DNA of 50,990 bases, from contig RSEH01000308.1 in the NCBI GenBank assembly GCA_006503475.1, positions 1-50,990 on the forward strand, written 5' to 3'. The first letter of the stretch is position 1; every line of letters starts with the position of its first letter. This DNA is from Stentor roeselii (Eukaryota; Ciliophora; Heterotrichea; Heterotrichida; Stentoridae). Positions 20,610 through 50,990 of this stretch are shown piece by piece. A model generated the notes under the pieces. It had not been told where the DNA came from. It was given only the letters and a program-made list of their open reading frames with translations, and searched no databases. The position numbers and the translations under genes are program-made.

Positions 20610-23600
20610 ATGGTGGAAATGAAAACTTCGATCACTCTTAGGCCTTCAGTCTTGTTTATCTTGTTACTATCTCTATCATCTTCTGAAAAAACTTGTTTCA
20701 GGCACAATGGCCACTGTCTCGATTCCTGTCCAAGCGGCTTTGAAGAGCAAGATGCAGATTGTAAAATGATTGAAACCAATCTGATAAATCTCGAATTTCA
20801 GTCTCTAGAATTGAATTCTAATTCAATTTTTAATAATTCTCTCGAAGAGTTCTCGACATCAAGTACTTTAAAATCTTTAGATCGAGGATTATTTTTTGGA
20901 AAAAGTTCACAGGTTGAAATAAAGAAAAACTTTTTCCTTCCTGCCATTTTTGGTATCCAGGTCTGGGTATATATAGTAGCACCTGGCGAAATCCTTACTG
21001 ATTCAAATGAAAACATTCAAATTACGGCAGAAAACTCAAAATTTACTGCGAGATACAAATCAAATGAATTGAAACATTTCTGGGAAAACACCTGGACCAG
21101 CTTGATTTTAAATTTTCATTTTTTTTCAAATGATGAACTGATTTTGATACTTGATTCTAACTCTCGATTGGAAAAAGGAGTTTTTAAAGAAAAATATTCA
21201 AGAAGTGATTGTACTTTTATACTTGGCAGTTTGAAAAACAAAGGATTTACTGGATTTTTCTATTTATTTAGAATTTTTAACTTTTTTGCTACTTTTAATG
21301 AAAGGATTTATTTAGCTGATTGTGAGTTTAAGCTGGAAGAAAAATGCGAAAAGCTTTTAAATCAAGGCAAGATCGAAACGCAAGCAGATGAAATTGAAGA
21401 CTGTTGCATTTCTGCTACGAAAAAATTGAGAAAGACTCCTTTTTGCATTTACTTTTCCGTTGGAATTTGTTATCATAGTATTGATAACTCACCTCTTCTA
21501 GTAGGATACAGCAATACTATCTTATCAACTGGAGAGGTCCTAAGTAGCGGTACTTATTTAAAAAGTGTTGGATTCCCATTATGGAGCACTACCAGTTATT
21601 ATATTAACGATTTTGATAATTGGATGATGCTTATAAAAAATGAAGAAAAAAACGGAGTACCGTTAAGAGGAACCTACTTTGGAAGTAACCAATATATATA
21701 TTGGAGGTATTTCAACCCCTATAGTAAGTTTTATATTGTTTGTTGGGGCTGGTTCTCATCAGAAATTACAACCTTTATCCTTTTCGATAAGCCTACTCTT
21801 TTCCAATTCAAAATTTATTTTGGCACTCCTTGGTTTACTTTTAAACAAGGAACCGCTACTTTCGAACCAATAACCTTCAACAAGTGGATAAACATAATGA
21901 TAAACTTTGAATACACGAATGAAGGAAATCAACTCGCCACAATACAAGGCGTGATAAATGGTTTTTCTCGTATCAACTCCGTCAGCGGTCATTCACTGAA
22001 TTACTCAACAGGTCCCGATTTTTACATTGGAGGAAATTCCACTGAAAAGATGAGAGGATGGTTAAGTTATTTTGAATACGGAATTCTTCCAGGGTCAAGA
22101 TTTAATGTATTGGAATACTTTATTAACAATTGCAATAATGAGAGTAATCTTTGTATTCCAGATTGCACAATAGGTAAATTTTTAAATTCGAATAATGTTT
22201 GTGAGAACTGCCCTGCTGAGTGTGAAATTTGCATTGATTCTGTTACATGCAGTTCATTTTTCAAGTTGTATGATCCTGTCTGTACCTATGGCAGTGATTA
22301 TTATAGATGTAAGGCGTGCACTTATAATTTCAAAGGTCAATGCTTTCCTGAATGTCCACTAGGATCTTATTATTACAGTCCAAAATGCATTGCACGAACA
22401 GATTCTTTGGTTTTTTTTTATCAAGTAGAAAACTTGAAAGCCAATTATTACTTAAATATCAGCTTTATTAAGGAAAAAGGGCCGAAGTCAGTTTATCTTC
22501 CAGGTAGAGGCCATTATTTCAGCAACTCTTCAGTTTATCAAAGTGATTCAGATTTTTACTTTGCAATTGATCATAATTTTGTGATTATAATTTATGTGAA
22601 TGGTCCAAGTAATGTGTTTGTTGGAGTCCCTGGTTATTTTTCCTTTAATCGATCTTATAATGCTGCAAGTCCTTGGCAAGCATTGATTGTGAACTATAAC
22701 CATTGGGAAGGTCTTACCAATTATAACTCATCAGCAGGTTATGCAACAGCCGGGTATCCAGTTAACATGTATTATACCAGATCAATATATAACAGTGTTA
22801 TATCTCCTACAACCACTGTTATAAGGAATGATACTAAAATGTCAGATAGGTCTAAAATGAAATTTCAAATAAAAACAGCTCAAGATTCTTCAGCGATCAT
22901 TTTTGTTCTCTCATACAGTCTTTTTTTCACTAGTTATTACTTGTATCCTCCTTTTGGTATTTCTGAATTTTCAGGATATTTATTACCGAAAAATTGTGGT
23001 CCTGATAAATATTATAACAGTATTAATGATTATTCTTTTTATAATTGTCTTCCGTATTGCTCATCTTGTACTAATGGAACAACTTGCACGTCTTACAATA
23101 CAATGAAATTATTTAATCTATCGTTTCCACTATGCCCTACTTTCTTTTTATTTAGTGAAGAATACTGTGTTCCTGATACTAACATGAATTTTTGTTTTAA
23201 ACTTGAATCACTTAAAGGGAAGATTGATGATGGAAGAGTCTCGAGTTTTATGACTCTTGATACTGCATCGAAGATTGATTGGCCCGGATTCACTGCAAGT
23301 GATCCTATTCCGGGAAAGGGAAGGGGCATGTACTTCGGGTACTTTGATACGGTTACTATGAAAACTTCAAATACTTTTTTCTTGTCACCTGAAATGTTTT
23401 TTGGAATTTGGATTAATCCTGAGTTTGGATTTTTTTTATATAAAGGGATGGTTGAACTTGGTGTTGTCAATCAGATTTTTTCAATCAAGTTTAGGAACTC
23501 AACTTCAAATTTATCGTTTAATGCTAGTCAAATAGTTGTTTTAAACTCGTGGAGTTTTTTAGCTATTTCGATTTATTTTACTCCGAATGATACATTTTTA

Positions 23601-26600
23601 GATATTTATGTTAATGCTGTAAAGGAAAATATATATGTGGGGCCTTATGCTTTGGTTGATCAGGTAAGTGAACTATTTATTGGTTCAGGTTTTAATCCAA
23701 CCGAGAGTTTCAAAGGCTGGATCTATGAGATCCGATACTCAGCATTCTTCGAGTCTCAAAATTCGATTCTCCAATTACAAGGCACATGCTCGGGATGTAA
23801 CTGTCCTTCATCCTCTGCTAATTGTCTTGAAACCTGCCCTCCTTTAACTTATTTCGCATTCAACGAGTGCAAATTATGTCCTTTATCAAAAGCTTGCAAC
23901 GGCCCATCATCGATGTGTTTCAATTACAAATGTTCAAAATGCAATGATTATTCAACTTGTGAGACATGTTCAGTCAGTTCCTGCTCTTTTACATGTCACG
24001 CCAGTTGTAGTGCTTGTCAAGCTGACAGTTCATTTTCATGTATTTCCTGCCTATCAGGAAAAGTTCGTTTTGGAGACTTGTGTCTTTCTGAATGTCCTTC
24101 ATTGCATTTATTATCAAATGACTTTTGCACTTCTGATCCATTCAAACTCATTTACAACTTTCATACTTTCAGTGAAAGTATAAAAGATACGTTTGGCGCT
24201 TTAACCTTTCTTAAGAGTGATGCTCTTACAGGTTATAAACGAGGGTGGTATATTCAGACAATCACTGAAAACCAAGACTTTCAATTTCCTCCTTTTTTCG
24301 GACTTAGTTTTTGGATTCGGCCTTACGACTTTTCTACGATTTTTCAAAAAACGATAACTGGCAATACTCAATTAAAACTCTGCCTCACAGCAGGAAACTT
24401 GAATATTTTATTTAAAGGTACAACGGATTTATACTCAAAACAACTGAACTTCACGTATTCCATGACCTGGCTCTTCCTAGGACTATCATTTGAACTTTCA
24501 GCAGGTTCAACTGAAATCAAGTTTTATTTAAATTCAGTTTTTTTAACTTCAACAAGCATTCTCGACTATCTTGAAAATTCTAAAGAAACTCATTTAATTC
24601 TTGGAGATTCTTCAAATAAGATGTGGATTTATTCTTTTATTATTCATTCAAAACTGTCAGCTGATGATGTTTCTAATGAAAATTTACCAGGGTCTTGTTT
24701 AAATCCAACAACTTTAGGTTCTTGTCTTTGGGATTCCACAGTGAATCAATATAATGATGGAAGTTCTTATTTAAGTTGTGATGTGAGCTGTGTGGCTTGT
24801 AGAGTTTTTTTAAGCTGCTCGATGTGTCGAGATCCTTTTTGCGAAACTTGCAGTGATATGGAGGATTCTGGGTGTATTCAATGCTTCGGTACTTTTGAAC
24901 ATAATGGAACTGCTTGTGTCTGTCCGGCAGGAACAATGAGAAAGAAGGTCGCTTGTGTTGCTTGCTACAATCAATGCGATTATTGCACTGAGACAGATTC
25001 TTATTCATGCATTCAGTGCAAGTCTTCTACTTTTGCCTTCATTGGACTTTGTCTTCCTGTCTGTCCTGTGTTGACTCTTTTGGCTTCTGGAACTTGTACT
25101 CAATCAAGCGAAACTTCAATTGTTTTCAAATTTTACAATTTTCATAGTAAGGTCACTGACTTGACTGGAAACTTTCATTTGGATAATGGTGAAAGTCCTG
25201 GGTACTTTTCTTATAGGAGAGGGAAATACTTCGGGGTATTGTTTTCAGATGAAATTTTAGCTTTTAGTCCTTTTTTTACCTTGGAAATGTTTTGTAGAGT
25301 TTCTAGTAATGGGGATATTTTTAGAACTAAGGAGACTGATGGGCTTTATGTTTTGGTTGATGGCTCGAATGTACTTGGTTTAAGGTTTTTTAATACTTCA
25401 CTTGGAACTGCTTCGATGAATTTAGATAGTAGTTTTAATTTTGGGCAGTGGACTTATTTGGCAATCATTTTAGAGATGAATAATAATTCTACTGTCGTGA
25501 AGTTTTACAAGGATTCATATCAAAGCTCGGTAACAATGAGTTTCAGTAAAACTTATTTTCATGTGACTTCCAATAGTCACTTTATCCTCGGAGATGCAGC
25601 CACAAATATATGGTTTTATAAATTCTCTTATTACTCCTATTCAAGGACCCAGTCATCCCTCCAATCAGAACTTGGAACCTGTTCAGGTTGTATATGCCCA
25701 TCTTCATTCAACGACTGTTTAGATCTTTGTTCCAACAATCAATACACTTCATCCTGTTTGCCCTGCTTATCAAACTGCACATCCTGCCGATACAACGACT
25801 CCTGCAATTACTGCGTTGATAGACTATGCAAGAGTTGTTCAGACACATTAATTTCAACATGCCTGACATGCACTGACAACGCAGAACTGACTTCATCAAA
25901 CACTTGCACATGCATGGAAGGCTTCTATCAAAACAACTCTCACTGCATAAATTGTTACAAGTTCTGCTCAGTCTGCGATAATACTGATCCCTGGGCATGT
26001 TCAGTATGCAGGTCAAACAGATATCGATATTTAGGACTTTGTTTCGATATTTGCCCAGTTTTGACTACTCCAGGTTCAGGCATCTGCACTGCTCAGGCTT
26101 CAGACAATATAAACTTTTTTTTCCATGTTTTCGAAGACCAAGTTTTTGATGATTCAAATCAGTTTTCTTTTAAACATACTTTAAATAGACCGATCTTCGG
26201 GTTTAATAGAGGAAAGTTGATTAATCAGCAAGAAAGTTTTAGTGAAATTAATTTTGGACCGTTTTTTAGCTTGGTTTTATGGGTGAAACCTTTGAATAGT
26301 GGAATGATTTTTCAGAAATTTGGTGATTTTTTGATTTGGTTACAAACTGGCCAGGAACTGAAAATTGAAATTAATACAACTAGTGGAAAAGGTGAGAGTT
26401 TTACTTTGAATGCAGGATTCATCGCTAATGGTTGGAAGTTTATGGTCTTCACGTTTGATAAGACGAATAAAGCAAGTCCTTTGAAGTATTATGAAAACTC
26501 TAAAAATGTTCAATCAAGTTTTACAATATTAAATGACTATTTGTCGTCTTCTCTTACTAAAATCAGGATTGGAGATAATGGTTCTCTTTTGTGGTTATAT

Positions 26601-29600
26601 CAAATGAAGTATTATAGAAGTATACTTGGATCGAGTCAAATTGCGGATTTGATTGGCACTTGCTCTGGATGTGTTTGTCCTGCTGCATTGAATCAATGTC
26701 TTTGGGAGTGTGATAGTTTTAGTTTTTACAAAACATCATGCGAGTCTTGTTTACAGTCCTGCGAATCTTGCAGATTTAATGACACCTGCTCTCAGTGCAC
26801 GAATTCTTTATGTAAAACTTGTCAAACTCCTAACTTTTTGAGCTGCTTGACTTGTACTGAAAATGCTCACATATCAGTGAATGATTGTCTTTGTGATAGC
26901 CACTATTTTAGAAGAAACAGCCTGTGTATTGAATGCAATAGTTATTGTAAAGAATGCACAGGAGAATACTATTTGAATTGCAGTTCTTGTATTATTTCTG
27001 TAAATGGGTTTTGTTATGACGTGTGTCCAGTTCTATTTAGCTTATCAGTTGATAAGTGCATTAAATCTGAATCAAATGCTGTTGTTTTCGTTTTTAATTC
27101 ATTAAAAGGCGTTCAAACTAGTCTAGATCAAACATTTCAGTTCAGTAGTGTAAGTGGAAATGATTATCCTAATAATCAAAATGGAGATCCAGTCAGTGGC
27201 TATAAACGTGGCCTTTTCTTTGATCAAAGTCCTTTAGCAACTCTCACAAATTTCAAGTTCAATATGAATTTCACAATTATAATATGGGTAAATGTGCATA
27301 ATTTTGGATGCTTGATCAATAAAACAAGATTTAGTCTTTCATTAACCCAAGAAGGACTAAATGCATCAATAAACTACCAAGACAATTTCATTTCAACTTT
27401 CCAATATTCAAGACAAATTGATTTAAAGAAATGGACATTTGTGGCATTTGCAATAATTACTAATGAAAAAGTAGAAGTTTCATTCTACTTAAACTCATTT
27501 TCCTCAAATGACTTGGAATACAATAGGAATTTCATTGATTCAAACGAAAAACTAATTTTAGTCAATGAATTTTCTTTATTTAAAGGTTGGATCTACAATT
27601 TTGTGTACTCATCTTCAAAATTTCAACCTGGATTGATTTATTTGAATGATTGGTACAAGCCTGAGCTCTGGCCTTGCGAGATTAACTTTTATTTCGATGG
27701 AGTTTGTAAACCTTGTAATAATTGCAACTGTCGCAGACGAAATGATTGCACACTCTGTAATGATCCATTGTGTGAAGTTTGTTTGGATTATGTTTCAGGA
27801 TGTATTAAATGTTTTTCATTTGCGGGATTCAAACCTGGAACTAATATTTGCACTCTTTGCTCACCAAGATGCACGACCTGTGTTTATTCAGTTAACAGCT
27901 GTCCAATCTGCAAACCACAATTCCTGATGAATTATGATAATACATGTATTAAATATTGTTCAGAAGGAGATAATCAAGTAGAATCTCGGTGTGAAAAATC
28001 TCAAAAAAATTTATTATCATTTAAATTTGTTAAACCTACAAATGAGTTTAAAAGTAACAATTATACTTTATACATGGGCAAAGAAGATCAATATTGGCCT
28101 TCATATGATGATCTTGATCCTTGGATTTTACCAATGAGAGGACTTTACTTTAAGCGATCTATGTGCTTCTTAGGTTCTTATTCAAATAATTCTCAGATAC
28201 TTTTAGCTAATGCTCAGTCTTTTGATATCTTTTTAATGGTTTTAGAAGGAAGTGGAATTATTCTCACTTTGAATAATCAAACACATCCTTTTGTGATACT
28301 TTCAGTGCAGCAAGCTGGTTCTTCGTTTTACCTTATTTTGAATTATAAGATGACTGATTTTTTGATAACTAGCTTTTGTAATATTACTGCTACGATGAAT
28401 TATAATTCTTGGATACATTTAACTTGGACATTAGATTTCGCTTCGAATATGACCACCTTAAATCTTTTTGCGAATCAAGCTGCTTCATTATCAAAAACAC
28501 TTATCTACCAAGTCTTCGATCAGCCAAACTATTCTACTCTATCACTAGGAGGATTCGACAAAAAGGACTTTTTTAAGGGATACATCTACAGTTTTTCAAT
28601 ATTCAACTACAAGCTGAGCTCATGGACATCATCACCAACATCCTGCAAATGCAGTCTTTGCAGTGCAGAAGGTGACTGTTTGATAACCTGCAGTCCAGAT
28701 TCATATTTTGAGACCACCTGCAAAAAATGTTTATCCAATTGTGAACTAGGCTGTTCAAACGGTGATAACTGTTTACTTCACAAGGACAAATACTGCCAAG
28801 ACTTCGAGTCATTAACAGAAGATTGCACAAAATGCATCAACAATACTCTTCAATCTAAAAGACCTTGCGAATGCATAAAAAACGGTTTCTACGATTTCAA
28901 ACAAAACTCTTGTATATGCCCCGAAGGCCAGTTGATTTATCAAGAAGCTTGTGACAACTGCTTTCGTTGGCTTCAACCTGGAGAAGTTGAAGCTGAATTT
29001 ACTGCGAATTTCTTAGAAGTTATTTTTAAGTTCAATGTGAGTTTGGAACTGGTCTCTTGCCAAGATCTTTTCTTACAAAGGGACTTGAAAAAATTTGGGC
29101 AAGAGTTTGTTTGTGAGTTTTCAGATGAGGTCGATGTTTTAAAGATTCAGTTTGGAAAAGGTTATTCTTTAAAAAATGAAACTATTGAACTCAATTCGCA
29201 GAAGATTAAAGGAAAATTTCAGGAATGTGGGTTTAAATTTAATGATTTAAGGACTAGGGTTAGGTATACTGCTGATTTACCTGCTCCTCAAGCTGTCATT
29301 CAAGCACCTGAACAGGTTTTTTTGAAGTGTCAGGATTTAGAAGTTGATGGGATTTTGTCTACTGGGCAGCTACTTGATGGACTTTTGTATAAATGGAGTT
29401 TTAATGGAGCACTTTCGAAGTTTAGTAGAGAATTTTCAGAGATTTCTTTGATCAAGATAGAGAAAAAATTACTTGTTAAAGGAAATTACACAGTCACTTT
29501 AACTGTGAAAAACAAATTCGACCAACTCAGTACATCCACCTCAAATATTGAAATTCTAGATACTGATACCTTGAGAGCTATTTTCGACCCATTGATCGAC

Positions 29601-32600
29601 TACTCATGCCCAGTAAGTCAATCATGTACCTTCGCAATCCAAGAAATCCAATCTTGCATCCCAAACGCAATAATAGAATTAAACTGGGATTTCACCCAAG
29701 GTTCCCAACAACTATCCAAAGAAGGTCTCTCATCATTCTGGTTAAGCCAAACAATTCCAAGTGCCCTTCAGATCCCAGCAAAACTATTCAGGCCATCATG
29801 GCTGACATTCACATTAACCCTGTTCGAAACAACTAAAAAAATAACCATTTCAAAAATCTTAAAAATTAAAATCAAGGCAGAAGCTCCTGAACTTGTTATT
29901 GATAGAACTCCTGGAAGTGTTTCTTCACTTGAAGATCTTGTCATTAACGCGACACTTCCAGTGAGTCAATCGACGAGTATTGCTTATAACTGGACTTGTA
30001 TTTATCAAGAAGGTCCTTGCACCTTTGATTTCAATGATACGAATCCAGTGCTTTATATACCACTTAGCATTACTAGTCAGAAGATCATTGATAGAATCGT
30101 TCTTGATGTTACCACCACTCAGGTTATTTCGAGAAGGCTTCAGGAAACTGAAACTTTAAGTAGTAGTCTGAAGTTTCCATGCAAATTTGTTGATTGGGTT
30201 GTGCCGACTGTTAAGATTTTAGAAATTGGAACTGGAAAGCAGCCGAAAGTCTTTCCTTTTACTCGAGTCACTAAGTTAAAAGCGAATATTGCAGGTGATG
30301 GGACTTTCTTAGTAAATTGGAGTATCGGAAATTTTTCAGTTTTCGCATCTGGAAACACAGACATTGAAGTCGGGATTCAGTCATGGCTACTATCAAAAGG
30401 TTCTTCATATGTCTTGAAACTTCAAGTAATAGATGAGAAAAAACATATAAATGACTTTGAATACGAATTCACAGTAAACTCGCCTCCAAAACTTGGAATT
30501 TTCTCAGTGAGTCCCGAAGAAGGAATCGAATTAGAAACGGATTTCAGTCTCTCAATGAGTGACTGGGTCGATGCAGAAGAAAACTACCCACTTTTGTATA
30601 CTTTCGGAGCTTATAATCAAGGAAAACAAGCAAAATTTATTACAAAAACCCAAACTTCTTATTATAAAAAAGTAAGATTCCCTTATATATCTCCTATGAT
30701 TGTTCTTTTTGCTCAGATATATGATTCTTTAGATGATTATTCAGAAGTCACTGCTAATATATCATTGCAAATCAATCAGAATCTTGATGTTGAAAATTTT
30801 ACTTCAAATGTTGATTCAAGTTTATCAGCGGTTTTGATCCCTGCCTTGCCTGCTGAGCTCGGAACTCAAATTTCTACGATTTTTAATAGAGATATGAGTG
30901 TTTTAGGAAGTTTTCAGAAACCTTCTAATAGCACTTTAGAGAATATGCTTGTGGCATATGAGGTTATTAGTTCTTACCTTGAGCTTTATATCAACTCGAC
31001 TGGATCTGCATCGATTGAGATTTCTGCTCAGATTCTGAATATGTTGAATCAAAATCCTTTCATCACTTCTGATGTAAGTTTTAACTTGACATTAAAAATG
31101 AGTGAAGCTATCTTTTCAGCAATGGATATCACTCAAGGTCTTTCTGAAAGTGCCTGCGAAAATCTACTAGGATCAATAACCAACACTTTCTACTTCGAAT
31201 CAGCTGAAGGTTCTCCAAATCAGTTAAGTAAGTTTGAAGATTTTCAAAAACAAATTTCTCTCGGTCTAAGCAAAACTCTTCTTCCAGGTGAAACTAAATC
31301 ATTTTCATTTCCAAAAGTAACTCTAAACGTCCAAAAGACCTATCGTCCAGATTCAGATTTAAAAAACTCATTACTGAACAATTCTGACGTTGTCTCAATA
31401 ATTCCAAAAGAGTTTTTAAATTCATTAGAGTCATCAACCTTATCAATATCATTAAGTTTGACTAAAACATCTCCGTCATCAAACATATCAATAGTATCAC
31501 TTTCAATATATGACGATACTTCTGAACTCAAAGGACTTGTTCAAAATTCTTATTTTGAAATAATCATTCCTTATAAAAACGCAACAAGCGTCAACAGCCC
31601 AGTCTGTGTTTTTTTGAATGAAAGTCAACTCTGGAATAATTCAGGATGCAAAGTAAAAGAAGTGAAATTGAACAGCATCACTTGTAATTGTCTTCACTTG
31701 ACATCTTTTTCTGCAGGAGAGTTAGAAGGAGGATTCTTTCCAAGCAACAACATCGAGCAAACTGTGGACTTCAATTCATTAAAAAACATTTCATCCACTT
31801 CGGCGATTGGATTTTATTTTGCTTTAGGAATTTTGATTGTTTACTTGATAATCGGTGCTCAGTCTTTGAAAAAAGATAAACTTGACTTAATAGAGCTTCG
31901 TGAAGAATTCGAAAAAAAAAATAGCAAACCTTTGGTAGTTGATTTTAATAATATTGAACCTGAAGTATCTGAAGAAATTGCTGTCAATGCTGATATCATC
32001 GATCCTCCTCCTGATGATAGAATACCGCAAAGTACCCAGCAATTCGCTCGAGATGCTTTCAAAGAAGTAGTTCAAAAACACAAACTTTTGACAGTTTTTA
32101 ATCTTTACGATCCATTTCAAAGTCGTTTTAATAGAGCTAGTTTGCTGTTTTTGAATGTGATTGGGAAAATGTACTTTATTGGACTTTTTTATGAAGGTGA
32201 AAAAACTGCAGCAAGTAATGTGAAGGGAATTGCTGCAAGTTATTCATTGAGGGATGCCCTGGTTATTCTCTGGTCGAGCCTTATTATGTTGGTAGCAAAT
32301 GCTTTTTTTATTTATTTCATGAAGAATCGACCTGTTTCACCTAATATGCCGAGAGAGGTTTTTGATAAGACAATCAAGTTTAATTCAAGGAAAAAATTGG
32401 GAATTTTTATTATTTTCATTTCTGTTTTTGCTTGGCTTTTGTGGAGTATAGCTATGTTTGCTTTACATCTTGACAAGTTTACAAGTTATAAGTGGATTAT
32501 CAATACAAGTATAAGTATTTTCATTGATATGATTGTAACTCCTCTTGTTAAAGGAATTGTAATTACTATGATTGGAGGATGGATACTGAAAAAAATTAAG

Positions 32601-32699
32601 GAAAAGATTGAAAAAAGTAAAATTGAATCAGCAACTGTTATGCCTGTTGAAGGGGAGTTAAATATTTACACTGATGATAAGAAAAACAAGGTTTTTTAA
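20610..32699 (+). CDS. giant LamG / PKD-REJ / GPS membrane protein (polycystin-1-like)
   Basis: One frame of 4029 codons with no intron. A signal peptide (VLFILLLSLSSS, near 14-25) is followed by about nine LamG/concanavalin-like modules separated by cysteine-rich linkers (furin/EGF-like CxxC spacing) up to about residue 2790. A PKD/REJ-like region comes next (about 2890-3650), with a PKD fold at 2889-2987. A GPS motif at about 3665-3705 (SPVCVFLNESQLWNNSGC ... CNCLHLTSFS) predicts a GAIN domain and self-cleavage. TM1 is at about 3731-3751. After a cytoplasmic linker of roughly 85 residues come four or five more membrane segments (3845-3998), the first preceded by a polycystin-1-like FNLYDPFQSRFNRAS block. 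No PLAT and no channel-forming polycystin domain is seen. It is probably a cell-surface adhesion or sensing receptor (inference). Confidence 0.88.
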   Translation: MVEMKTSITLRPSVLFILLLSLSSSEKTCFRHNGHCLDSCPSGFEEQDADCKMIETNLINLEFQSLELNSNSIFNNSLEEFSTSSTLKSLDRGLFFGKSSQVEIKKNFFLPAIFGIQVWVYIVAPGEILTDSNENIQITAENSKFTARYKSNELKHFWENTWTSLILNFHFFSNDELILILDSNSRLEKGVFKEKYSRSDCTFILGSLKNKGFTGFFYLFRIFNFFATFNERIYLADCEFKLEEKCEKLLNQGKIETQADEIEDCCISATKKLRKTPFCIYFSVGICYHSIDNSPLLVGYSNTILSTGEVLSSGTYLKSVGFPLWSTTSYYINDFDNWMMLIKNEEKNGVPLRGTYFGSNQYIYWRYFNPYSKFYIVCWGWFSSEITTFILFDKPTLFQFKIYFGTPWFTFKQGTATFEPITFNKWINIMINFEYTNEGNQLATIQGVINGFSRINSVSGHSLNYSTGPDFYIGGNSTEKMRGWLSYFEYGILPGSRFNVLEYFINNCNNESNLCIPDCTIGKFLNSNNVCENCPAECEICIDSVTCSSFFKLYDPVCTYGSDYYRCKACTYNFKGQCFPECPLGSYYYSPKCIARTDSLVFFYQVENLKANYYLNISFIKEKGPKSVYLPGRGHYFSNSSVYQSDSDFYFAIDHNFVIIIYVNGPSNVFVGVPGYFSFNRSYNAASPWQALIVNYNHWEGLTNYNSSAGYATAGYPVNMYYTRSIYNSVISPTTTVIRNDTKMSDRSKMKFQIKTAQDSSAIIFVLSYSLFFTSYYLYPPFGISEFSGYLLPKNCGPDKYYNSINDYSFYNCLPYCSSCTNGTTCTSYNTMKLFNLSFPLCPTFFLFSEEYCVPDTNMNFCFKLESLKGKIDDGRVSSFMTLDTASKIDWPGFTASDPIPGKGRGMYFGYFDTVTMKTSNTFFLSPEMFFGIWINPEFGFFLYKGMVELGVVNQIFSIKFRNSTSNLSFNASQIVVLNSWSFLAISIYFTPNDTFLDIYVNAVKENIYVGPYALVDQVSELFIGSGFNPTESFKGWIYEIRYSAFFESQNSILQLQGTCSGCNCPSSSANCLETCPPLTYFAFNECKLCPLSKACNGPSSMCFNYKCSKCNDYSTCETCSVSSCSFTCHASCSACQADSSFSCISCLSGKVRFGDLCLSECPSLHLLSNDFCTSDPFKLIYNFHTFSESIKDTFGALTFLKSDALTGYKRGWYIQTITENQDFQFPPFFGLSFWIRPYDFSTIFQKTITGNTQLKLCLTAGNLNILFKGTTDLYSKQLNFTYSMTWLFLGLSFELSAGSTEIKFYLNSVFLTSTSILDYLENSKETHLILGDSSNKMWIYSFIIHSKLSADDVSNENLPGSCLNPTTLGSCLWDSTVNQYNDGSSYLSCDVSCVACRVFLSCSMCRDPFCETCSDMEDSGCIQCFGTFEHNGTACVCPAGTMRKKVACVACYNQCDYCTETDSYSCIQCKSSTFAFIGLCLPVCPVLTLLASGTCTQSSETSIVFKFYNFHSKVTDLTGNFHLDNGESPGYFSYRRGKYFGVLFSDEILAFSPFFTLEMFCRVSSNGDIFRTKETDGLYVLVDGSNVLGLRFFNTSLGTASMNLDSSFNFGQWTYLAIILEMNNNSTVVKFYKDSYQSSVTMSFSKTYFHVTSNSHFILGDAATNIWFYKFSYYSYSRTQSSLQSELGTCSGCICPSSFNDCLDLCSNNQYTSSCLPCLSNCTSCRYNDSCNYCVDRLCKSCSDTLISTCLTCTDNAELTSSNTCTCMEGFYQNNSHCINCYKFCSVCDNTDPWACSVCRSNRYRYLGLCFDICPVLTTPGSGICTAQASDNINFFFHVFEDQVFDDSNQFSFKHTLNRPIFGFNRGKLINQQESFSEINFGPFFSLVLWVKPLNSGMIFQKFGDFLIWLQTGQELKIEINTTSGKGESFTLNAGFIANGWKFMVFTFDKTNKASPLKYYENSKNVQSSFTILNDYLSSSLTKIRIGDNGSLLWLYQMKYYRSILGSSQIADLIGTCSGCVCPAALNQCLWECDSFSFYKTSCESCLQSCESCRFNDTCSQCTNSLCKTCQTPNFLSCLTCTENAHISVNDCLCDSHYFRRNSLCIECNSYCKECTGEYYLNCSSCIISVNGFCYDVCPVLFSLSVDKCIKSESNAVVFVFNSLKGVQTSLDQTFQFSSVSGNDYPNNQNGDPVSGYKRGLFFDQSPLATLTNFKFNMNFTIIIWVNVHNFGCLINKTRFSLSLTQEGLNASINYQDNFISTFQYSRQIDLKKWTFVAFAIITNEKVEVSFYLNSFSSNDLEYNRNFIDSNEKLILVNEFSLFKGWIYNFVYSSSKFQPGLIYLNDWYKPELWPCEINFYFDGVCKPCNNCNCRRRNDCTLCNDPLCEVCLDYVSGCIKCFSFAGFKPGTNICTLCSPRCTTCVYSVNSCPICKPQFLMNYDNTCIKYCSEGDNQVESRCEKSQKNLLSFKFVKPTNEFKSNNYTLYMGKEDQYWPSYDDLDPWILPMRGLYFKRSMCFLGSYSNNSQILLANAQSFDIFLMVLEGSGIILTLNNQTHPFVILSVQQAGSSFYLILNYKMTDFLITSFCNITATMNYNSWIHLTWTLDFASNMTTLNLFANQAASLSKTLIYQVFDQPNYSTLSLGGFDKKDFFKGYIYSFSIFNYKLSSWTSSPTSCKCSLCSAEGDCLITCSPDSYFETTCKKCLSNCELGCSNGDNCLLHKDKYCQDFESLTEDCTKCINNTLQSKRPCECIKNGFYDFKQNSCICPEGQLIYQEACDNCFRWLQPGEVEAEFTANFLEVIFKFNVSLELVSCQDLFLQRDLKKFGQEFVCEFSDEVDVLKIQFGKGYSLKNETIELNSQKIKGKFQECGFKFNDLRTRVRYTADLPAPQAVIQAPEQVFLKCQDLEVDGILSTGQLLDGLLYKWSFNGALSKFSREFSEISLIKIEKKLLVKGNYTVTLTVKNKFDQLSTSTSNIEILDTDTLRAIFDPLIDYSCPVSQSCTFAIQEIQSCIPNAIIELNWDFTQGSQQLSKEGLSSFWLSQTIPSALQIPAKLFRPSWLTFTLTLFETTKKITISKILKIKIKAEAPELVIDRTPGSVSSLEDLVINATLPVSQSTSIAYNWTCIYQEGPCTFDFNDTNPVLYIPLSITSQKIIDRIVLDVTTTQVISRRLQETETLSSSLKFPCKFVDWVVPTVKILEIGTGKQPKVFPFTRVTKLKANIAGDGTFLVNWSIGNFSVFASGNTDIEVGIQSWLLSKGSSYVLKLQVIDEKKHINDFEYEFTVNSPPKLGIFSVSPEEGIELETDFSLSMSDWVDAEENYPLLYTFGAYNQGKQAKFITKTQTSYYKKVRFPYISPMIVLFAQIYDSLDDYSEVTANISLQINQNLDVENFTSNVDSSLSAVLIPALPAELGTQISTIFNRDMSVLGSFQKPSNSTLENMLVAYEVISSYLELYINSTGSASIEISAQILNMLNQNPFITSDVSFNLTLKMSEAIFSAMDITQGLSESACENLLGSITNTFYFESAEGSPNQLSKFEDFQKQISLGLSKTLLPGETKSFSFPKVTLNVQKTYRPDSDLKNSLLNNSDVVSIIPKEFLNSLESSTLSISLSLTKTSPSSNISIVSLSIYDDTSELKGLVQNSYFEIIIPYKNATSVNSPVCVFLNESQLWNNSGCKVKEVKLNSITCNCLHLTSFSAGELEGGFFPSNNIEQTVDFNSLKNISSTSAIGFYFALGILIVYLIIGAQSLKKDKLDLIELREEFEKKNSKPLVVDFNNIEPEVSEEIAVNADIIDPPPDDRIPQSTQQFARDAFKEVVQKHKLLTVFNLYDPFQSRFNRASLLFLNVIGKMYFIGLFYEGEKTAASNVKGIAASYSLRDALVILWSSLIMLVANAFFIYFMKNRPVSPNMPREVFDKTIKFNSRKKLGIFIIFISVFAWLLWSIAMFALHLDKFTSYKWIINTSISIFIDMIVTPLVKGIVITMIGGWILKKIKEKIEKSKIESATVMPVEGELNIYTDDKKNKVF
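24136..28960 (+). repeat. tandem LamG plus cysteine-rich modules, about 980 bp each
   Basis: Five successive modules begin near residues 1175, 1503, 1832, 2156 and 2466 of the giant protein, a period of about 310-329 residues. Each starts with a strand such as LIYNFHTF, VFKFYNFH or NFFFHVF, has a YKRG or FNRG turn, an ILGD/RIGD segment, and ends with CSGCxCP-type cysteines. At DNA level the copies have diverged widely, so the duplications are old. Confidence 0.8.
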
Positions 32700-37781: not shown

Positions 37782-40700
37782 ATGTTGGCAATCTTATTAA
37801 CCATCTATCTCTGCTACTCAGATAAGATCGAATTCATCCCTAAAGCAAGATCGCCTCCTTCATTTCGCGGCATGCCATTTATAGACTACTTAAAAGCCAG
37901 AGATTCGATAATAATCTTCGGTGGTCGTACTTTCGATGGCCAGCTAAATGATATCTGGGAATTTTCATTACAGTCACTCTTCTGGGAAAGAGTTTTAATT
38001 ACTTCTCTGGAAGGGCCTTGTAAATTTTAAATAGCAGGAAGAACTTCACCAGGAGGTTTCACAAGTCAGAACGAGTCAAAGTTTTATATATTCGGAGGGT
38101 ACTCAGATAACGGTCCTCGAAATGAATTCTGGGAATTCGACTTCGAAACTCGCATGTGGCAGAAAATAAAAACTGACTATTCACCTCCTCGATTCATTGA
38201 ATATTCTTTTACAACTTACGAAGTTTATGACGTAAAATATTTTGTCATTTTTTTATCGACATTTGAAGATTATACAGTAGGTGGTTTGTACAGGTAACGA
38301 GCATTTAGGTTAAATTGCAGTTCTTTTCAATGGGAAGAACTTCCAGTTAATGGGGATTTCAGACCTGGCTTTGGGTTCTTTATGCTTGAATATTATGATG
38401 GAGAACTGATAATGGCTGACATTATTTTTGATTTCTTTAGGCTGCATAGATATTCTTTGTCAACTTCTACTTGGTCAGTTGATTATCCAGATTTAAATGA
38501 TTGCAGTTATATCACTAACAGCTTAGTATATAAACACGAATTATATGTCGTCTGCAATGAAAAATATACAATCGATAATAAAGAATATGACAGTAAAAAG
38601 ATAAGTTTGCTTGAAGGCGAAAATAAATTAATTTCTATTAAAATCTTTCCAGATTTATCAGAAAATTCTTGCATGAAGATGGTTAAAATTAAAGACTCTT
38701 TATATATTTTTGGGAATTACAATGATTGTGATAATTTTTCTAATAAATTTGGAAGAATAGATCTTGATGATTTAAAATATGAAATTATTAATGATTATTT
38801 TGTGCAACCTCCACCTAGATCTTATCATTCGATGATTATTATCAACTCTAAACTGTATGTGTTTGGAGGTATTGATTCTAGTAATATTTTTAATGATATG
38901 TGGACTTTTGATTTGGTTTCTGAAGTTTGGGAGCCAGTGATAGCTAAAGGAAAAGTTCCAAGTCCGAGGTATGTTCATTCGGCTGGGTCAGATGGGGATA
39001 ATTTAATTATATGGGGAGGAATCAGTTCCACCGGATTAAAGGATGACCTGTTTATTTTCAACTCAATCACTGAGGAATGGACTGAGCTAAATCCTGTAAC
39101 ATCAAAAAATCCGAGCCCAGCAAAAGGTGCTTGTTTGGTAGTCAAAGGGTTCAAATTATATCTTTATGGTGGCCAAAGAAATTCAGATAAATCTAATGAA
39201 CTTTGGGAATATGATATAGGGACTAATAAATTCGAACTTTTATCATCCAATGGTTTGCAAAGGGTAAGTTCTGCCTACTGCTGGCTTGACTCCAACATAT
39301 TCTATGTTTCTTTAGGAACTAATGATAAAGGCGAAGGAACGAATCGTGTTGATTATTTTAATCTTTCCTCAATGTCATGGAAAACTCTCTTCGATTATTC
39401 ACTGTCAGACATTAGCCTTTCCAGCCAGTCCATCATAGGAGATTACTTAATCATAATAGGTGGTCAAAGCGATTATTTCTTCCCAGTGTATGATATTATT
39501 TCACTCGGACTGAAAGATGAAAGCTCTGAAAACATCGGAAAAATTGAATACTCGAGTTACGCAGCTGGTTTCGTTTACTTTAACAAGTCTCTCTTTATAT
39601 ACGGAGGAGGAAGTCAAGCTGGTGAAATCGTTGCTCCACTTGTAGGAAGTCCAATATTTGCCAAGTTTAATTTAGAAGAACTATGCAAAGACAATAACTG
39701 CAAAGCTCTCTGCTCAGCTGGGACCTTTATGTCGAATAAACTCTGCAAGCCTTGCAGTAAAGGCACGTTTAATGACCAGCGAGGCAGTTCAAAGTGCCAA
39801 GAGTGTAAACCAGGGACCTACAACACAAAAATTGCAGCAACGAGTAGTCTTCAATGCATTCCTTGTTTAGAAGGCACTTTCAGTAACGAAACCGCTTCTG
39901 AGGAATGCAATCCTTGCCCTTTAAACTTTTCTTGTCCGACAGGAAGCATAAGTCCATCAGTTCTTCGCCAGAGACGAAACATGACTTCTTCTCAGCCTTC
40001 TTCATATAAAGATCCTGACATTCCAGAAGACTTGCTTCTTTTTCGACTTTTAGTCCTTATTCCTAGTTTTATTGTAGTTTTGCTGTGCTTGGTGATAAAG
40101 AAACTCCGAAATCACTTGGAAAAACTGGACCTTTATGACCTCCAGCATGATAACGAGCTCAGTGACTATGTAATTAAGAAACAAACTAAAATCGGAGGAA
40201 TTTTTACAGTCCTTTTCATCATCGCATCACTCATGTTGACCTGCACAGCAATTCTGACTTACTCCAAGGCGAACATTCAAGAGTCCAAAGGCCAGGTGCC
40301 TTTAATTATAATGGAATCTGAAGTCTCTTCATTTGAGTCCAAGTCAATCTCTGTTGAAATCTCTTTAGATTTCTTTGGAGGTATCTGTGAAATGAACTCT
40401 GAGTGTTCTTCATCAATCAACGCATCTATTTCAAGAATCGACTATATCAATAAAAAATTATCATGCAAATCTTACAAGAACAAAACTTGTGTAATTGAAA
40501 TGACTTGCGATGAAGTAGAATTCAAGACAGGAGCCCAGGTAAGTTTCGAGATCAGTGAAAATCTGAGCTACTCTTCAGGGATTCGACTGACTCTAGCAGC
40601 GAGTTCTTCGATTCCAGAAGAAGTCAGTTCAGTGAGTTCATTTTTATTACCGAGTAGTCAATTTGTATTCGTTGGGCCTGTTGCAAGTGAATTTTACTTC

Positions 40701-41162
40701 TTAGCCACTCCTTCTTTGTTTCAGTCAGAGTCGAGTCGATGGGAAAGTGAGGCGACTGGGTATCATATCTCTGAGAGAAACAGTCCTTCAGGTGGAAGCC
40801 AGTCTACTCCAGATGAACTTTCTTTTGTTTCTCATTTGTATGTCAAGTTATTTGTCGATATCAACAACAGTGCTCTTGTCACTAAGAGACTCTTGAAACA
40901 GGATTTTTTCTTTTTTGCTGGGTCTTTGCTTGGAACGGTTTCTGGACTCTTTGGAATCACCGGGTTTGTTATGAGCTTGTTTGAACAGCAGGTTGAGAAA
41001 ATTAGGAAAAAGATTAAGAATAGGAATACTGTGAGAGATTCGAATCCTCCAAATGATTTAAGAGTCAGTGGAACTCGACTTTCGGAAAGAGATTCTATTC
41101 CTATGAAATCTAGACCTAGCTTGAATGATGAGGTATCGAAACAACAGGATGAAGAAGAGTGA
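37782..41162 (+). CDS. Kelch-repeat / GCC2 cysteine-rich membrane protein, two 15-nt introns
   Basis: Exons 37782-38019, 38035-38293 and 38309-41162 give 1116 residues. The gene looks broken unless both 15-nt introns are removed; then a signal peptide (MLAILLTIYLCYS), Kelch repeats at about 25-610 (IIFGGRTFDGQLNDIWEF, YVFGGIDSSNIFNDMWTF, LYLYGGQRNSDKSNELWEY) and the rest share one frame. A GCC2/GCC3 ephrin-receptor-like region follows at about 627-714 (CSAGTFMSNKLCKPCSKGTF type). Membrane segments lie at about 742-764, 795-816 and 1033-1058, with an extracytoplasmic domain between the last two and a polar tail. It is likely a surface or endomembrane protein of unknown ligand. A dead partial copy lies just upstream. 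Confidence 0.88.
38020..38034 (+). other. 15-nt intron 1 of the Kelch gene
   Basis: GTAAATTTTAAATAG, phase 1, completing a Ser codon. In-frame TAA if retained. After removal the next residues are a Kelch repeat (YIFGGYSDNGP). Confidence 0.93.
38294..38308 (+). other. 15-nt intron 2 of the Kelch gene
   Basis: GTAACGAGCATTTAG, phase 2, completing an Arg codon. Retention would read TAA as the next codon. Removal joins exon 2 to the long third exon upstream of its first ATG. Confidence 0.9.
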
Positions 41163-44317: not shown

Positions 44318-47098
44318 TTATTTCAATTTCAGCCTAATACCGCAACACTCTTTAGTAAAATAGTTTTGATCGTATGAGATTCTAATCTTATTGAAGCAGT
44401 TCATACAAACTTCGTTTCGATTAATTATCTTTGCACAACATAAACATTTATAGTTTGTACATAGCAAATTCATTTTTAAACACCTTACACAAACTAAATG
44501 GTCACATAGCAATGAATAGTAAGCTTTTGAAGTATCGTTACAAAAACTGCATCTTCTTTCAAATCTTTGTTCAATTAATTTAATTGAGTCCTGATTAAAT
44601 GTGCATTTGAGACATTCTTTGTTTTCTTTTTTTGTACAGTTTTTGCACTCAATGTGATTACATATAAAATTCAACTGTTTACTGAAACCTTTTGCATAAC
44701 AAGAAAAACAAGGTGAATAAACCAGCATACAATAATTGCAGTTACCTTTTTTTAGTAAATAACAAGGTTCACAAAATAAATGACCACAACTTAAGATCTG
44801 ATATTGCTTCTCGCATTGATTATCACAATTTATACATCTTTTATTTTTATCTAATCGATTATCACAATCGAAACATATGAATTCTTTTCTTTTTGAGCTT
44901 GAAAAACATAATCGTATCTCTTTACAAAAATTACATGTTGTTAAAATGCATCCTAAAGGGCAGTAAACTTTTGTTTCTTTATTTGAAAAGCAATTATCAC
45001 ACACTTTATGTTCGCAGTTTAAGGTTTTAAGATTATTTACTGAATTCATACATTTAGAGCATTTTTCATCTAAAACTTCAAATTCAGCACCTATTTTTAT
45101 CTCTTCATTTATATAAATATGATCTATATTTTTTTTCTCTTCTTTTAGATTTGGATCAACTCTATTTGGAATATCAGAATTTTCAATGATTGGCTTCTTT
45201 TCTTCTTTAATTTTTTTTTCATTCTCAATTTTTCTACATTCTAAGCATGGATTTAATTTTTCTAAACAGTTATAACATGCATCATGATCACATAGTTTAT
45301 CATTGCCCTCAATTATAATCTTATTAAGATTGCATCTTGAGCAAACTCTCTTATTTATTTCTTCAGAGCATAAGATGCAAGAATTACCCAAACAAAACTT
45401 ACATGGAATATGACCACAGATAAATTTATATTCTGATTGTCTGGGAATATAACAATTTGAGCAAAGCTTTTTATCTTCACAGCAAGCTCTACATATTTTT
45501 TCTTCATTACAATAAATGCATCCCAGATGACCGCATTCAAGGTAAAAATCAACTCCAGTTTTACCACAATTAGTGCAAATTTTTTCTATATCAATTTGAG
45601 GATTAACTTTTGGTTCATCAATTTTAGGCATAACTTGTTTTAGATCAATTATTTTGTTTATTCCAAAATCATTAACTTGCTCAATAACTTTATTTTCAAT
45701 TATCATTTGAACTGGATCAATGGTTTTTAAAGGTTTGCAACTTGAACATTTTTCTGGGGATGAAATGCAATCATAACAGCAGAGATGTAAACATGATTGA
45801 CTGTTTGTTGATTCATTTATTGCTTTACACAAGTACTTTTTTTGCAGGCATCTTGGGCATTTTTCCATTTTTGTATCTTGTTCGCAAATCTCACAAAACT
45901 TAATGATACAATCATAGCATGATGGATGAGAGCATTTAAATGTTGCATTTTCGATTGAAGTTTGTTTGCAATTTATGCAATTATTTTTTGAATTCATACA
46001 ATATCTACAAATCTTTTCATTACTACACAGGCTGCACCCTTGATGGTCGCATTCTAGTATAGCTGAAAATTCAAATTCAAAGCAATTAGGACAGATTTGT
46101 TTATTTTCATCAGTTTTGGCTTGAGGGACATTTTCTATGAATGTGCAGTGTTTGCAGTAATCATTAGAGCAGCAAAATATGCAGCCAATATGAGAACATT
46201 TAAGCTCTTTAAGGTAATTGAAACTCTCGCAATTTGGGCAAGCTTGCATTTGTGGCATAGACTCAAACTTGACTATATTATTGTTTATATCACAAATTAT
46301 ACAAAAATTTTCATTATAACAATGATTACATCCATTGTGACTGCATTTCAGTTTATAATAAATTCCATCCCTCTCACAATTTCCACATTTATATTCAAAT
46401 TTTTGCACAGGTAAGTAATTTTTTTGAGCTGATTCATCATGATAGATTGATAAACTACTTCTTTGAGAGCAACTATTGCAGAATATAGTATCGTCAAAAG
46501 TTAATAAATCATTAGTACCACTGCAAACAGAGCATTTGTTATTAACAGAAACATTATCACATATACTAGGATCGTGATCTTTCATGCAATTAATACAGCC
46601 ATTATGACCGCAACTAAGACTGCAATCGATGCCAACAAAGTTGCATTTTCCACATTGGAACATTTCTTTAAAGTTTTGTTTTATTTTTTCAATTAATCCC
46701 TGTTGATCATCAATATTTTCTTTAATATTCATTGATCTGATAATTTTAATTTTATTAAGGTAGTTATCTGTATATAAATTTCTTCTAATTAAAGTTTTAT
46801 AATAATACTCCATGCTTTTCAATTTATTTAAATAATCCGTGCAAATAGAGGTGATTGCTTCTACTATTTTCGAAGTCTCTATAATTATTCTATTTTCAGT
46901 ATTTTTTAAATGAAGCAGAATATTTTTGATATGATTTAGGAAAGAATCAAATTCCTGGTCCGGTAGACTTTTTTCAAGAAAGGACCTTTTATGATTTAGG
47001 CCTGATGAGAAATATTCATTGAAATGCAAGGTGCAGACAAAGATATCATGAGAATCGCAGTAGAAATCAGGGATTCTTTTGCAAGTAATACATTCCAT
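44318..47098 (-). CDS. tandem mini-RING-like zinc-module protein with B-box-like N-terminus
   Basis: 926 residues from the ATG at 47098 (MECITCKR); the frame extends upstream but without an ATG. Residues 3-40 form a B-box-like site (C-x2-C-x7-C-x2-H-x4-C-x2-H-x9-H). Residues about 45-145 are helical, possibly coiled coil. From about 146 to 900 there are roughly thirteen short cysteine-histidine modules. Four share exact spacing: C-x2-C-x10-C-x-H-x2-C-x2-C-x5-C-x2-C, for example CPNC...CSHIGCIFC...CKHC. That is RING C3HC4 order with minimal loops. RING domains often recruit E2 ubiquitin-conjugating enzymes, but these lack the usual hydrophobic contact residues as far as I can judge, so a structural zinc-binding rod is equally possible. 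Family unknown. Confidence 0.85.
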   Translation of the reverse strand: MECITCKRIPDFYCDSHDIFVCTLHFNEYFSSGLNHKRSFLEKSLPDQEFDSFLNHIKNILLHLKNTENRIIIETSKIVEAITSICTDYLNKLKSMEYYYKTLIRRNLYTDNYLNKIKIIRSMNIKENIDDQQGLIEKIKQNFKEMFQCGKCNFVGIDCSLSCGHNGCINCMKDHDPSICDNVSVNNKCSVCSGTNDLLTFDDTIFCNSCSQRSSLSIYHDESAQKNYLPVQKFEYKCGNCERDGIYYKLKCSHNGCNHCYNENFCIICDINNNIVKFESMPQMQACPNCESFNYLKELKCSHIGCIFCCSNDYCKHCTFIENVPQAKTDENKQICPNCFEFEFSAILECDHQGCSLCSNEKICRYCMNSKNNCINCKQTSIENATFKCSHPSCYDCIIKFCEICEQDTKMEKCPRCLQKKYLCKAINESTNSQSCLHLCCYDCISSPEKCSSCKPLKTIDPVQMIIENKVIEQVNDFGINKIIDLKQVMPKIDEPKVNPQIDIEKICTNCGKTGVDFYLECGHLGCIYCNEEKICRACCEDKKLCSNCYIPRQSEYKFICGHIPCKFCLGNSCILCSEEINKRVCSRCNLNKIIIEGNDKLCDHDACYNCLEKLNPCLECRKIENEKKIKEEKKPIIENSDIPNRVDPNLKEEKKNIDHIYINEEIKIGAEFEVLDEKCSKCMNSVNNLKTLNCEHKVCDNCFSNKETKVYCPLGCILTTCNFCKEIRLCFSSSKRKEFICFDCDNRLDKNKRCINCDNQCEKQYQILSCGHLFCEPCYLLKKGNCNYCMLVYSPCFSCYAKGFSKQLNFICNHIECKNCTKKENKECLKCTFNQDSIKLIEQRFERRCSFCNDTSKAYYSLLCDHLVCVRCLKMNLLCTNYKCLCCAKIINRNEVCMNCFNKIRISYDQNYFTKECCGIRLKLK

Positions 47099-50916: not shown

Positions 50917-50990
50917 GGTGTTAGGGTGTTAGGGTGTTAGGGTGTTAGGGTGTTAGGGTGTTAGGGTGTTAGGGTGTTAGGGTGTTAGGG
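50917..50990 (+). repeat. telomere, octamer TGTTAGGG
   Basis: From 50919 to the end are exactly nine perfect copies of TGTTAGGG (C-strand CCCTAACA), preceded by GG in register. The G-rich strand runs 5' to 3' towards the window end, so this is a true chromosome terminus. The octamer is the type described for heterotrich ciliates, unlike TTGGGG or TTTTGGGG of other ciliates. Confidence 0.97.

Follow-up and report, generated by a model that had tools for sequence, protein, structure and literature searches.

RING fingers of the C3HC4 type (zf-C3HC4/zf-RING) place eight Cys/His ligands around a C-x-H-x2-C-x2-C core, with a hydrophobic residue two positions before the third ligand (C3), and generally occur alone or as a few copies. 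The same ligand spacing, core and hydrophobic position recur along a protein of 926 residues, hereafter the array protein, encoded in the 50,990-nucleotide stretch of Stentor roeselii contig RSEH01000308.1 (assembly GCA_006503475.1) analysed here and referred to as the window. In contrast to a RING finger, the array protein has 13 cores (37 in one related frame) and the residues with which RINGs contact E2 enzymes, including the linchpin, are mostly absent. On balance, its sequence leads us to lean towards a pseudo-RING zinc scaffold that would not pass ubiquitin.

TRIM proteins and pseudoligases likewise join a B-box-like site, a helical region and RING-like modules in one chain, although the array protein follows the order head, helix, array, does not match the B-box family PF00643 and has many modules instead of one RING. 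RBR ligases (RING1-BRcat-Rcat) also set several RING-like zinc modules in a row, three of different kinds with a catalytic Cys. The arrays weakly match IBR_1, whereas a Pfam scan of the whole array protein found no IBR or LIM match and no RBR order. LIM-domain scaffolds use tandem two-zinc beads as protein-interaction rods, with a ligand spacing that differs from that of the array. The phrase 'tandem RING domains' is reportedly used in the literature for Bre1 and for TRIM5alpha. Among the open-licence matches listed in a literature search, neither tandem RING arrays of this size nor this family were described, which is a weak absence. Giardia VSPs, in the part of PMC2996952 that describes them, are likewise C-x2-C rich and zinc-binding, give weak RING matches and form a large family. 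Zinc in the array is predicted, and VSPs differ in having a signal peptide and a surface location, whereas the array protein displays neither a signal peptide (by eye) nor a membrane helix. Loss of the E2/ubiquitin contacts in the RING domains of TRIM6 and TRIM22 is stated in a portion of PMC11992055.

Modular organisation of the array protein

The array protein is read from the minus strand without any internal stop across 926 codons (44318-47098), and both the coordinates and the length given in a preliminary description of this DNA are correct. Its N-terminus, MECITC, aligns with the first residues of P0003 (MECFAC) and P0011 (MNCKYC) and, in P0004, with MECLRC beginning at residue 9. The chain contains 116 Cys and 23 His, 43 C-x2-C knuckles and 13 C-x-H-x2-C-x2-C cores, 10 of which lie within complete RING-spaced modules, defined as C-x2-C-x6-16-C-x-H-x2-C-x2-C-x3-12-C-x2-C. 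The eight Cys/His ligands follow RING order and spacing in 10 modules and 13 cores, which establishes the RING layout at the level of sequence. None of 2000 composition shuffles yielded a complete module, and the shuffles contained on average 0.05 cores and 14.5 C-x2-C knuckles. Chance or artefact as the origin of the array is ruled out by these shuffles, by the conservation of the ligands and by the ratio of nonsynonymous to synonymous substitution (dN/dS), both given below. The features of the protein are as follows.

44318..47098, minus strand: whole open frame of the RING-spaced array protein, 926 amino acids plus stop (open reading frame; start Met aligned with relatives)
46964..47098, minus strand: B-box-like head, residues 1-45, C3, C6, C14, C22, H25 and H36 kept (alignment of 11 heads)
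46655..46963, minus strand: probably helical segment, residues 46-148 (composition)
46559..46654, minus strand: first module, residues 149-180, weak A type, last ligand pair degenerate (motif scan, type profiles)
46292..46387, minus strand: A-type module, residues 238-269 (motif scan, type profiles)
46145..46240, minus strand: A-type module, residues 287-318 (motif scan, type profiles)
45998..46093, minus strand: A-type module, residues 336-367, ABC unit 1 (motif scan, type profiles)
45884..45979, minus strand: B-type module, residues 374-405, ABC unit 1 (motif scan, type profiles, linker analysis)
45737..45859, minus strand: C-type module, residues 414-454, ABC unit 1, long first loop (type profiles)
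45482..45577, minus strand: A-type module, residues 508-539, ABC unit 2 (motif scan, type profiles)
45368..45463, minus strand: B-type module, residues 546-577, ABC unit 2 (motif scan, type profiles, linker analysis)
45236..45343, minus strand: C-type module, residues 586-621, ABC unit 2 (motif scan, type profiles)
44324..45109, minus strand: C-terminal cassette, residues 664-925, four D-type modules with cores 695, 771, 813 and 865 (five-gene alignment)

A tandem array of about thirteen RING-like modules, as first described, is thus borne out by the 13 cores counted and their RING spacing. The consensus then quoted (C-x2-C-x10-C-x-H-x2-C-x2-C-x5-C-x2-C) is of the RING type, although its exact x10 and x5 form fits only 4 modules. 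The complete modules are 32 to 39 residues long (n = 10), about 32 residues having been given at first, and the statement that they tile most of the protein was too strong because the 10 complete modules cover well under half of the 926 residues and helical or charged stretches intervene (residues ~46-148, 456-507 and 625-679). No Pfam or NCBIfam family fits the protein as a whole, and a RING family is absent from its Pfam matches at E <= 10. NF-X1 zinc-finger repeats (Pfam PF01422) are unmatched at the same threshold in the array protein and in nine related array proteins. A viral or prokaryotic origin was set aside, as queries with the single protein, which in viral contigs and prokaryote genomes detect close relatives only, found no relative in these or in phages.

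An ordered set of distinct modules

Profiles of types A, B and C were trained on hand-sorted paralogue modules with the window modules excluded. They score window cores 252, 301, 350, 389, 436, 522, 561 and 603 as A, A, A, B, C, A, B and C, respectively, each by at least 17 bits, while core 163 is a weak A and cores 695, 771, 813 and 865 belong to none of the three types. The linker between A and B modules measures exactly 6 residues in 10 of 11 cases, and the D cassette stays in register across 5 genes with 35 invariant columns, 32 of which are Cys or His. Spacing within the modules is also recurrent in the family, with a first gap of 10 or 11 residues in 54/75 cores and a last gap of 4 to 7 in 60/75. 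Non-ligand identity between the array protein and its closest paralogue, P0002, averages 44% for modules in equivalent positions (range 22-71%, with the top values in the D cassette), compared with a mean of 15% and a highest value of 36% for modules at other positions; between modules within the array protein it is 13%. Since same-position modules are alike between the array protein and P0002 and dissimilar elsewhere, and since their order and the A-B linker recur, the array consists of distinct beads in a defined order, as opposed to a repeat copied recently. The comparison with P0005 tells against this for the D modules, where identity at the same position (21%) hardly exceeds that at other positions (18%) and gives little signal.

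Paralogue family and selection

The assembly holding the window (44.4 Mb in 522 contigs) contains 33 distinct frames with at least two cores and at least 10 C-x2-C knuckles, with 219 cores in total, a count that comes from regions read after protein searches, is a lower bound for the genome and does not test kinship frame by frame. At least four cores are carried by 21 of the 33 frames, and RING- or RBR-like proteins recognised by eye on C13, C20 and C26 were left out. At the DNA level the core pattern occurs 784 times genome-wide against 30 for a reversed control, ordinary RINGs being included in the count. The largest array frame (C237:174869-182305; L083:869-8305, plus strand) encodes 2478 residues with 37 cores, 169 C-x2-C knuckles and 418 Cys. 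Two further array proteins end in a WD40 match, one of 1435 residues (C237:165793-170100; L082:793-5100, plus strand) at 30 bits, above the Pfam cut-off of 27, and one of 1578 residues (C24:9124-13860; L077:124-4860, plus strand) at 19 bits, below it. Groups of two or more array genes are found on C24, C59, C102, C178, C196, C228, C237 and C499. In addition, a stretch with three stops at C499:164635-164793 is 60% identical to residues 874-926 of the array protein and is apparently the remnant of another array copy.

The array protein and P0002 (residues 285-926) agree at 89 of 93 Cys and 12 of 13 His. Of the other residues, 83 of 298 are conserved in residues 285-663 and 147 of 219 in residues 664-926. 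The dN/dS values of 0.27 (residues 285-663) and 0.32 (664-925) show the array gene to be under purifying selection. Synonymous divergence (dS) falls from 1.9 in residues 285-663 to 0.46 in the C-terminal part; therefore, the cassettes of the two genes diverged, or were exchanged, more recently. At the level of identity, the C-terminal cassette (44324-45109 against L010:3388-4173, dS 0.46) reaches 71%, compared with ~41% for the upstream modules (dS 1.9), a contrast that hints at exchange between paralogues or gene conversion, or else at later divergence.

Likeness to RING fingers and pairing of the ligands

The hydrophobic residue two positions before C3 is present in 11/13 window cores and in 136/219 cores of all arrays, compared with 19/20 top-scoring RINGs and a background of 27.5%. 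Single family modules match zf-RING_5 (27/47) and zf-C3HC4 (24/47) at E <= 1, and one paralogue module (C196:49090-49203) passes the Pfam RING cut-off with 27.2 against 27 bits, while the whole of P0005 scores 21. A module profile was built from 47 of the 73 cores of P0001-P0010, its scrambled control from 38 of these 47 rows and a RING profile of the same genome from 19 of 20 sequences; scrambled controls keep only the Cys and His places and shuffle the rest. The profile of A, B and C modules gives 157 matches to structures with a best E of 6.3e-4, and the best 60 of the 157 are RING proteins, judging by their names. Aligned to the RINGs of the same genome with hhalign, the module profile reaches a probability of 81 over 27 columns, a result that covers the first six ligands only and was obtained with no control run.

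Several observations limit how much can be read from these matches. The scrambled A/B/C control still matches RING structures (75 matches, best E 7.4e-3), and for the D cassette the control does better than the real profile (best E 2.7e-6 against 1.1e-4). In a local test with 48 modules the real profile stands 1.8 standard deviations above the scrambles, 3 of 60 of which are as good, and IBR_1 is weakly matched by 20/47 single family modules. RING homology from profile matches alone was thus rejected, and RING descent is not established by these matches because scrambles that retain only Cys and His come close to the real profiles, or surpass them, in matching RING structures. Descent of the modules from a RING beyond ligand spacing is nonetheless likely.

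The same results bear on a second reading, in which the modules would hold zinc without a cross-brace, as ribbon-like or BRcat/IBR-like sites that join neighbouring Cys pairs in sequence order. Such a reading gains from the IBR_1 matches, from RING profile matches that are not clearly above the spacing-only controls and from the precedent of Rcat ('RING2') of the RBR ligases, which according to a portion of PMC3940038 was long taken for a RING and proved to have another fold. However, C-x-H-x2-C-x2-C is the RING core spacing, and the pattern of ligand loss leans towards the cross-brace, for which site 1 is predicted to comprise C1, C2, C5 and C6, and site 2 C3, H4, C7 and C8. Ligand loss was followed in 379 modules decoded in the 33 frames, each retaining five or more of the eight ligands and many of them homologous, which makes the p value below too kind. 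Loss rates split by cross-brace site, reaching 12-25% for ligands 3, 4, 7 and 8 and 3-11% for ligands 1, 2, 5 and 6, so that site-2 ligands are missing at roughly three times the rate of site-1 ligands. Of 75 modules with a double loss, 37 lack one ligand of C3/H4 and one of C7/C8, against 36% expected if losses were independent (p = 0.011). Joint loss of ligands 4 and 8 occurs 24 times, on 7 contigs, compared with 8.3 expected, and that of ligands 4 and 7 in 13 double losses, compared with 7.5. Two forms of co-loss are visible, one with H4 replaced and C7-x2-C8 reduced to C-C, the other with C-x-H extended to C-x3-H and one Cys of the last pair lost. Some cases are B-box-like heads, and excluding the first 45 residues leaves 32/65. 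Mean phi is 0.053 for cross-brace pairs, 0.006 for sequential pairs and 0.032 for pairs that are neither.

These figures are tempered by others that go against the cross-brace. Among double losses, no surplus is found for ligands 3 and 7 (8 against 10.1 expected) or 3 and 8 (0 against 5.3), the surplus being mainly that of 4 with 8 and 4 with 7, uncorrected for kinship, and site-1 pairs are without signal (phi -0.014). In a null model with every Cys left in place and all else shuffled, the C3/H4-C7/C8 share is already 45% against the real 49%, so that the lability of site 2 accounts for much of the raw enrichment. Co-loss was consequently rejected as strong evidence and offers modest support for cross-brace pairing. 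Zinc sites paired in sequence order appear unlikely, though they are the alternative that deserves most attention, and the cross-braced pseudo-RING module is retained as the preferred reading.

Residues of E2 and ubiquitin contact

RINGs use Ile or Val in the first loop and Pro in the second, as set out in part of PMC3940038, and a basic linchpin residue is among the RING contacts to E2/ubiquitin described in part of PMC11992055. These positions were counted in 11 of the 13 window cores and in 67 of the 73 cores of ten family proteins (window included), a subset of the 33 frames, and compared with a spread set of 20 RINGs encoded in this genome, 17 of which were parsed. Ile, Leu or Val at C1+2 is found in 0/11 window modules, 4/67 family modules and 9/17 RINGs (Fisher p 3e-5); Pro after C7 in 0/11, 1/67 and 13/17 (Fisher p 5e-11); and Arg or Lys after C8 in 2/11, 9/67 and 10/17 (Fisher p 3e-4). 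The combination of Ile, Leu or Val in loop 1 with Pro in loop 2 is met in 0/67 family modules. Among the 20 top-scoring RINGs of the genome, a biased sample, the three positions are occupied in 18, 12 and 20, respectively.

Since the contact positions are mostly missing, a ligase rod is disfavoured and a pseudo-RING zinc scaffold favoured. The multivalent ubiquitin-ligase scaffold suggested in the preliminary description, in which modules would recruit E2 enzymes and the array would give high local activity, draws on the RING ligand spacing, on the zf-RING_5 and zf-C3HC4 matches and on the paralogue module that exceeds the RING cut-off. It fails at the contact residues, two of the three positions being absent in 11/11 scorable window modules and all three rare in the 67, and we regard it as improbable. 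The last loop, probably too short for the usual RING helix, is a weak point in the same direction, as it is equally short (4-7 residues) in 7/17 and 3/20 of the two sets of comparison RINGs. On the other side, window core 695, which was not scored, ends C-P-L-G-C and therefore has the Pro. An array of active ligases is unlikely, and single active modules elsewhere in the family are possible.

A metal buffer or store, in which the cysteines would bind zinc or copper with little dependence on fold, would be in keeping with 116 Cys and 23 His in 926 residues and with a large, partly clustered family. A buffer would need neither the recurrent module types, their order and the A-B linker nor the WD40 matches behind two arrays, nor would it need modules that differ from each other, and this role seems more doubtful still. 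A last reading is a cysteine-rich protein of the surface or of cysts, like the VSPs of Giardia, with weak RING matches that arise from C-x2-C repeats; 36 of 218 VSPs gave such matches in the section of PMC2996952 on these C-x2-C rich, zinc-binding proteins. It is very improbable despite the partly clustered family and the near-telomeric window copy, given that no signal peptide is seen by eye at the N-terminus MECITCKRIP, that a membrane helix is unlikely (maximum 19-residue hydropathy 1.34), that C-x-H cores recur through the array and that two relatives have WD40 matches, as would suit a protein of the cytosol.

The B-box-like head and the helical segment

The array is preceded by a B-box-like head, which is common to the array protein and to proteins of ~690 residues in the same genome; one of these, P0011, has eight WD40 stretches. 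In the alignment of 11 heads the window head lacks the fourth Cys and the second His of H-x3-H found in its relatives. The B-box family PF00643 is matched by none of the 11 related heads, and the array protein is not among the 49 genome matches to it. ANCHR-like_BBOX is matched by 2/11 related heads (best E 0.0045), while the window head matches nothing. Against structures, the head profile finds PH0300 best (3.7e-4) and then, weakly, PML (0.47). The B-box-like site first noted is thus present, with a ligand set that is incomplete relative to its relatives and without a PF00643 match. The following segment contains one Pro and one Gly in residues 45-148, and from its composition residues 46-148 are probably helical. 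The order head, helix, array departs from the TRIM order of RING, B-box and coiled coil, as the preliminary description had recognised; its term 'TRIM-like' is loose, considering that PF00643 is unmatched and that a WD40 family of this genome carries such a head too. Both this common head and the WD40 matches that follow two of the arrays point to one interaction toolbox.

A second type of head, a Cys/His stretch with the motif N-x-S-G-Y-H-K-V-C-x2-H, opens many array genes. It is found at L010:1246-1440 and at 23 further genome places (E <= 0.1), and against Pfam has no clear match overall, 1 of 10 heads matching Zn_ribbon_12 at E 0.019.

Genomic setting

The neighbouring gene at 38382-41162 encodes a Kelch plus ephrin-receptor-like protein, by eye probably membrane-bound. 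A relative of it, 44% identical, adjoins the arrays of C499 in the same order and orientation, and this conserved arrangement points to an old segmental duplication. The array gene starts ~4 kb from the right end of the window, which is a telomere-type run of TTAGGGTG repeats (50917-50990). A 24-base run of TTAGGGTG occurs at 545 overlapping genome places and, among the 100 matches listed, those on contigs of known length lie at contig ends. The unit TTAGGGTG is a permutation of CCCTAACA, given as the telomere repeat of Blepharisma in part of PMC9942806. Unlike in Blepharisma's code, in-frame TGA is absent from three further long frames of the window, which use TGG. These features suggest a heterotrich with the standard code, such as Stentor. 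Elsewhere the window holds one uninterrupted frame of 4029 residues that matches Laminin_G_3 and REJ domains (20610-32699), a BEACH protein of 2139 residues with PH_BEACH (11557-17976) and two adjacent, similar frames of 221 residues (3968-4633 and 4830-5495), glutathione transferase-like by eye and forming a tandem duplicate.

Proposed role and significance

We infer the metal identity, the cross-brace fold, the rod shape and the scaffold role of the array from sequence. Each module of ~32-40 residues would form a compact RING-like bead around two metal ions, which are probably zinc. After the weak first module the beads would follow in the order A, A, A, B, C, A, B, C, D1-D4, and the conserved length of the A-B linker suggests a semi-rigid chain whose beads may offer different surfaces to different partners. 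The B-box-like head and the helical segment probably join copies or anchor the rod. The scaffold could hold several partners at set distances without passing ubiquitin, a role preferred over ubiquitin transfer because the E2-contact residues are mostly gone. Of the roles first suggested, a purely structural zinc rod therefore fits better than a ligase, with rod and zinc both deduced from the sequence.

More tentatively, the RING-type bead may have been reused as a building block in at least 33 frames. As many as 37 distinct pseudo-RING beads would follow one another in a fixed order, sometimes with a WD40 propeller behind them, and yield long scaffolds stiffened by zinc in which the bead types serve as an address code. 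If true, the family would rank with LIM or ankyrin rods as a class of repeat proteins, derived from a ligase domain that no longer works as a ligase. Single frames with 13, 14 and 37 RING-spaced cores would show that the bead is usable as a structural repeat, and the arrays would offer a natural system for studying the change from ligase domain to scaffold. In genomes of this kind, counting RINGs by motif search may overstate the number of ubiquitin ligases.

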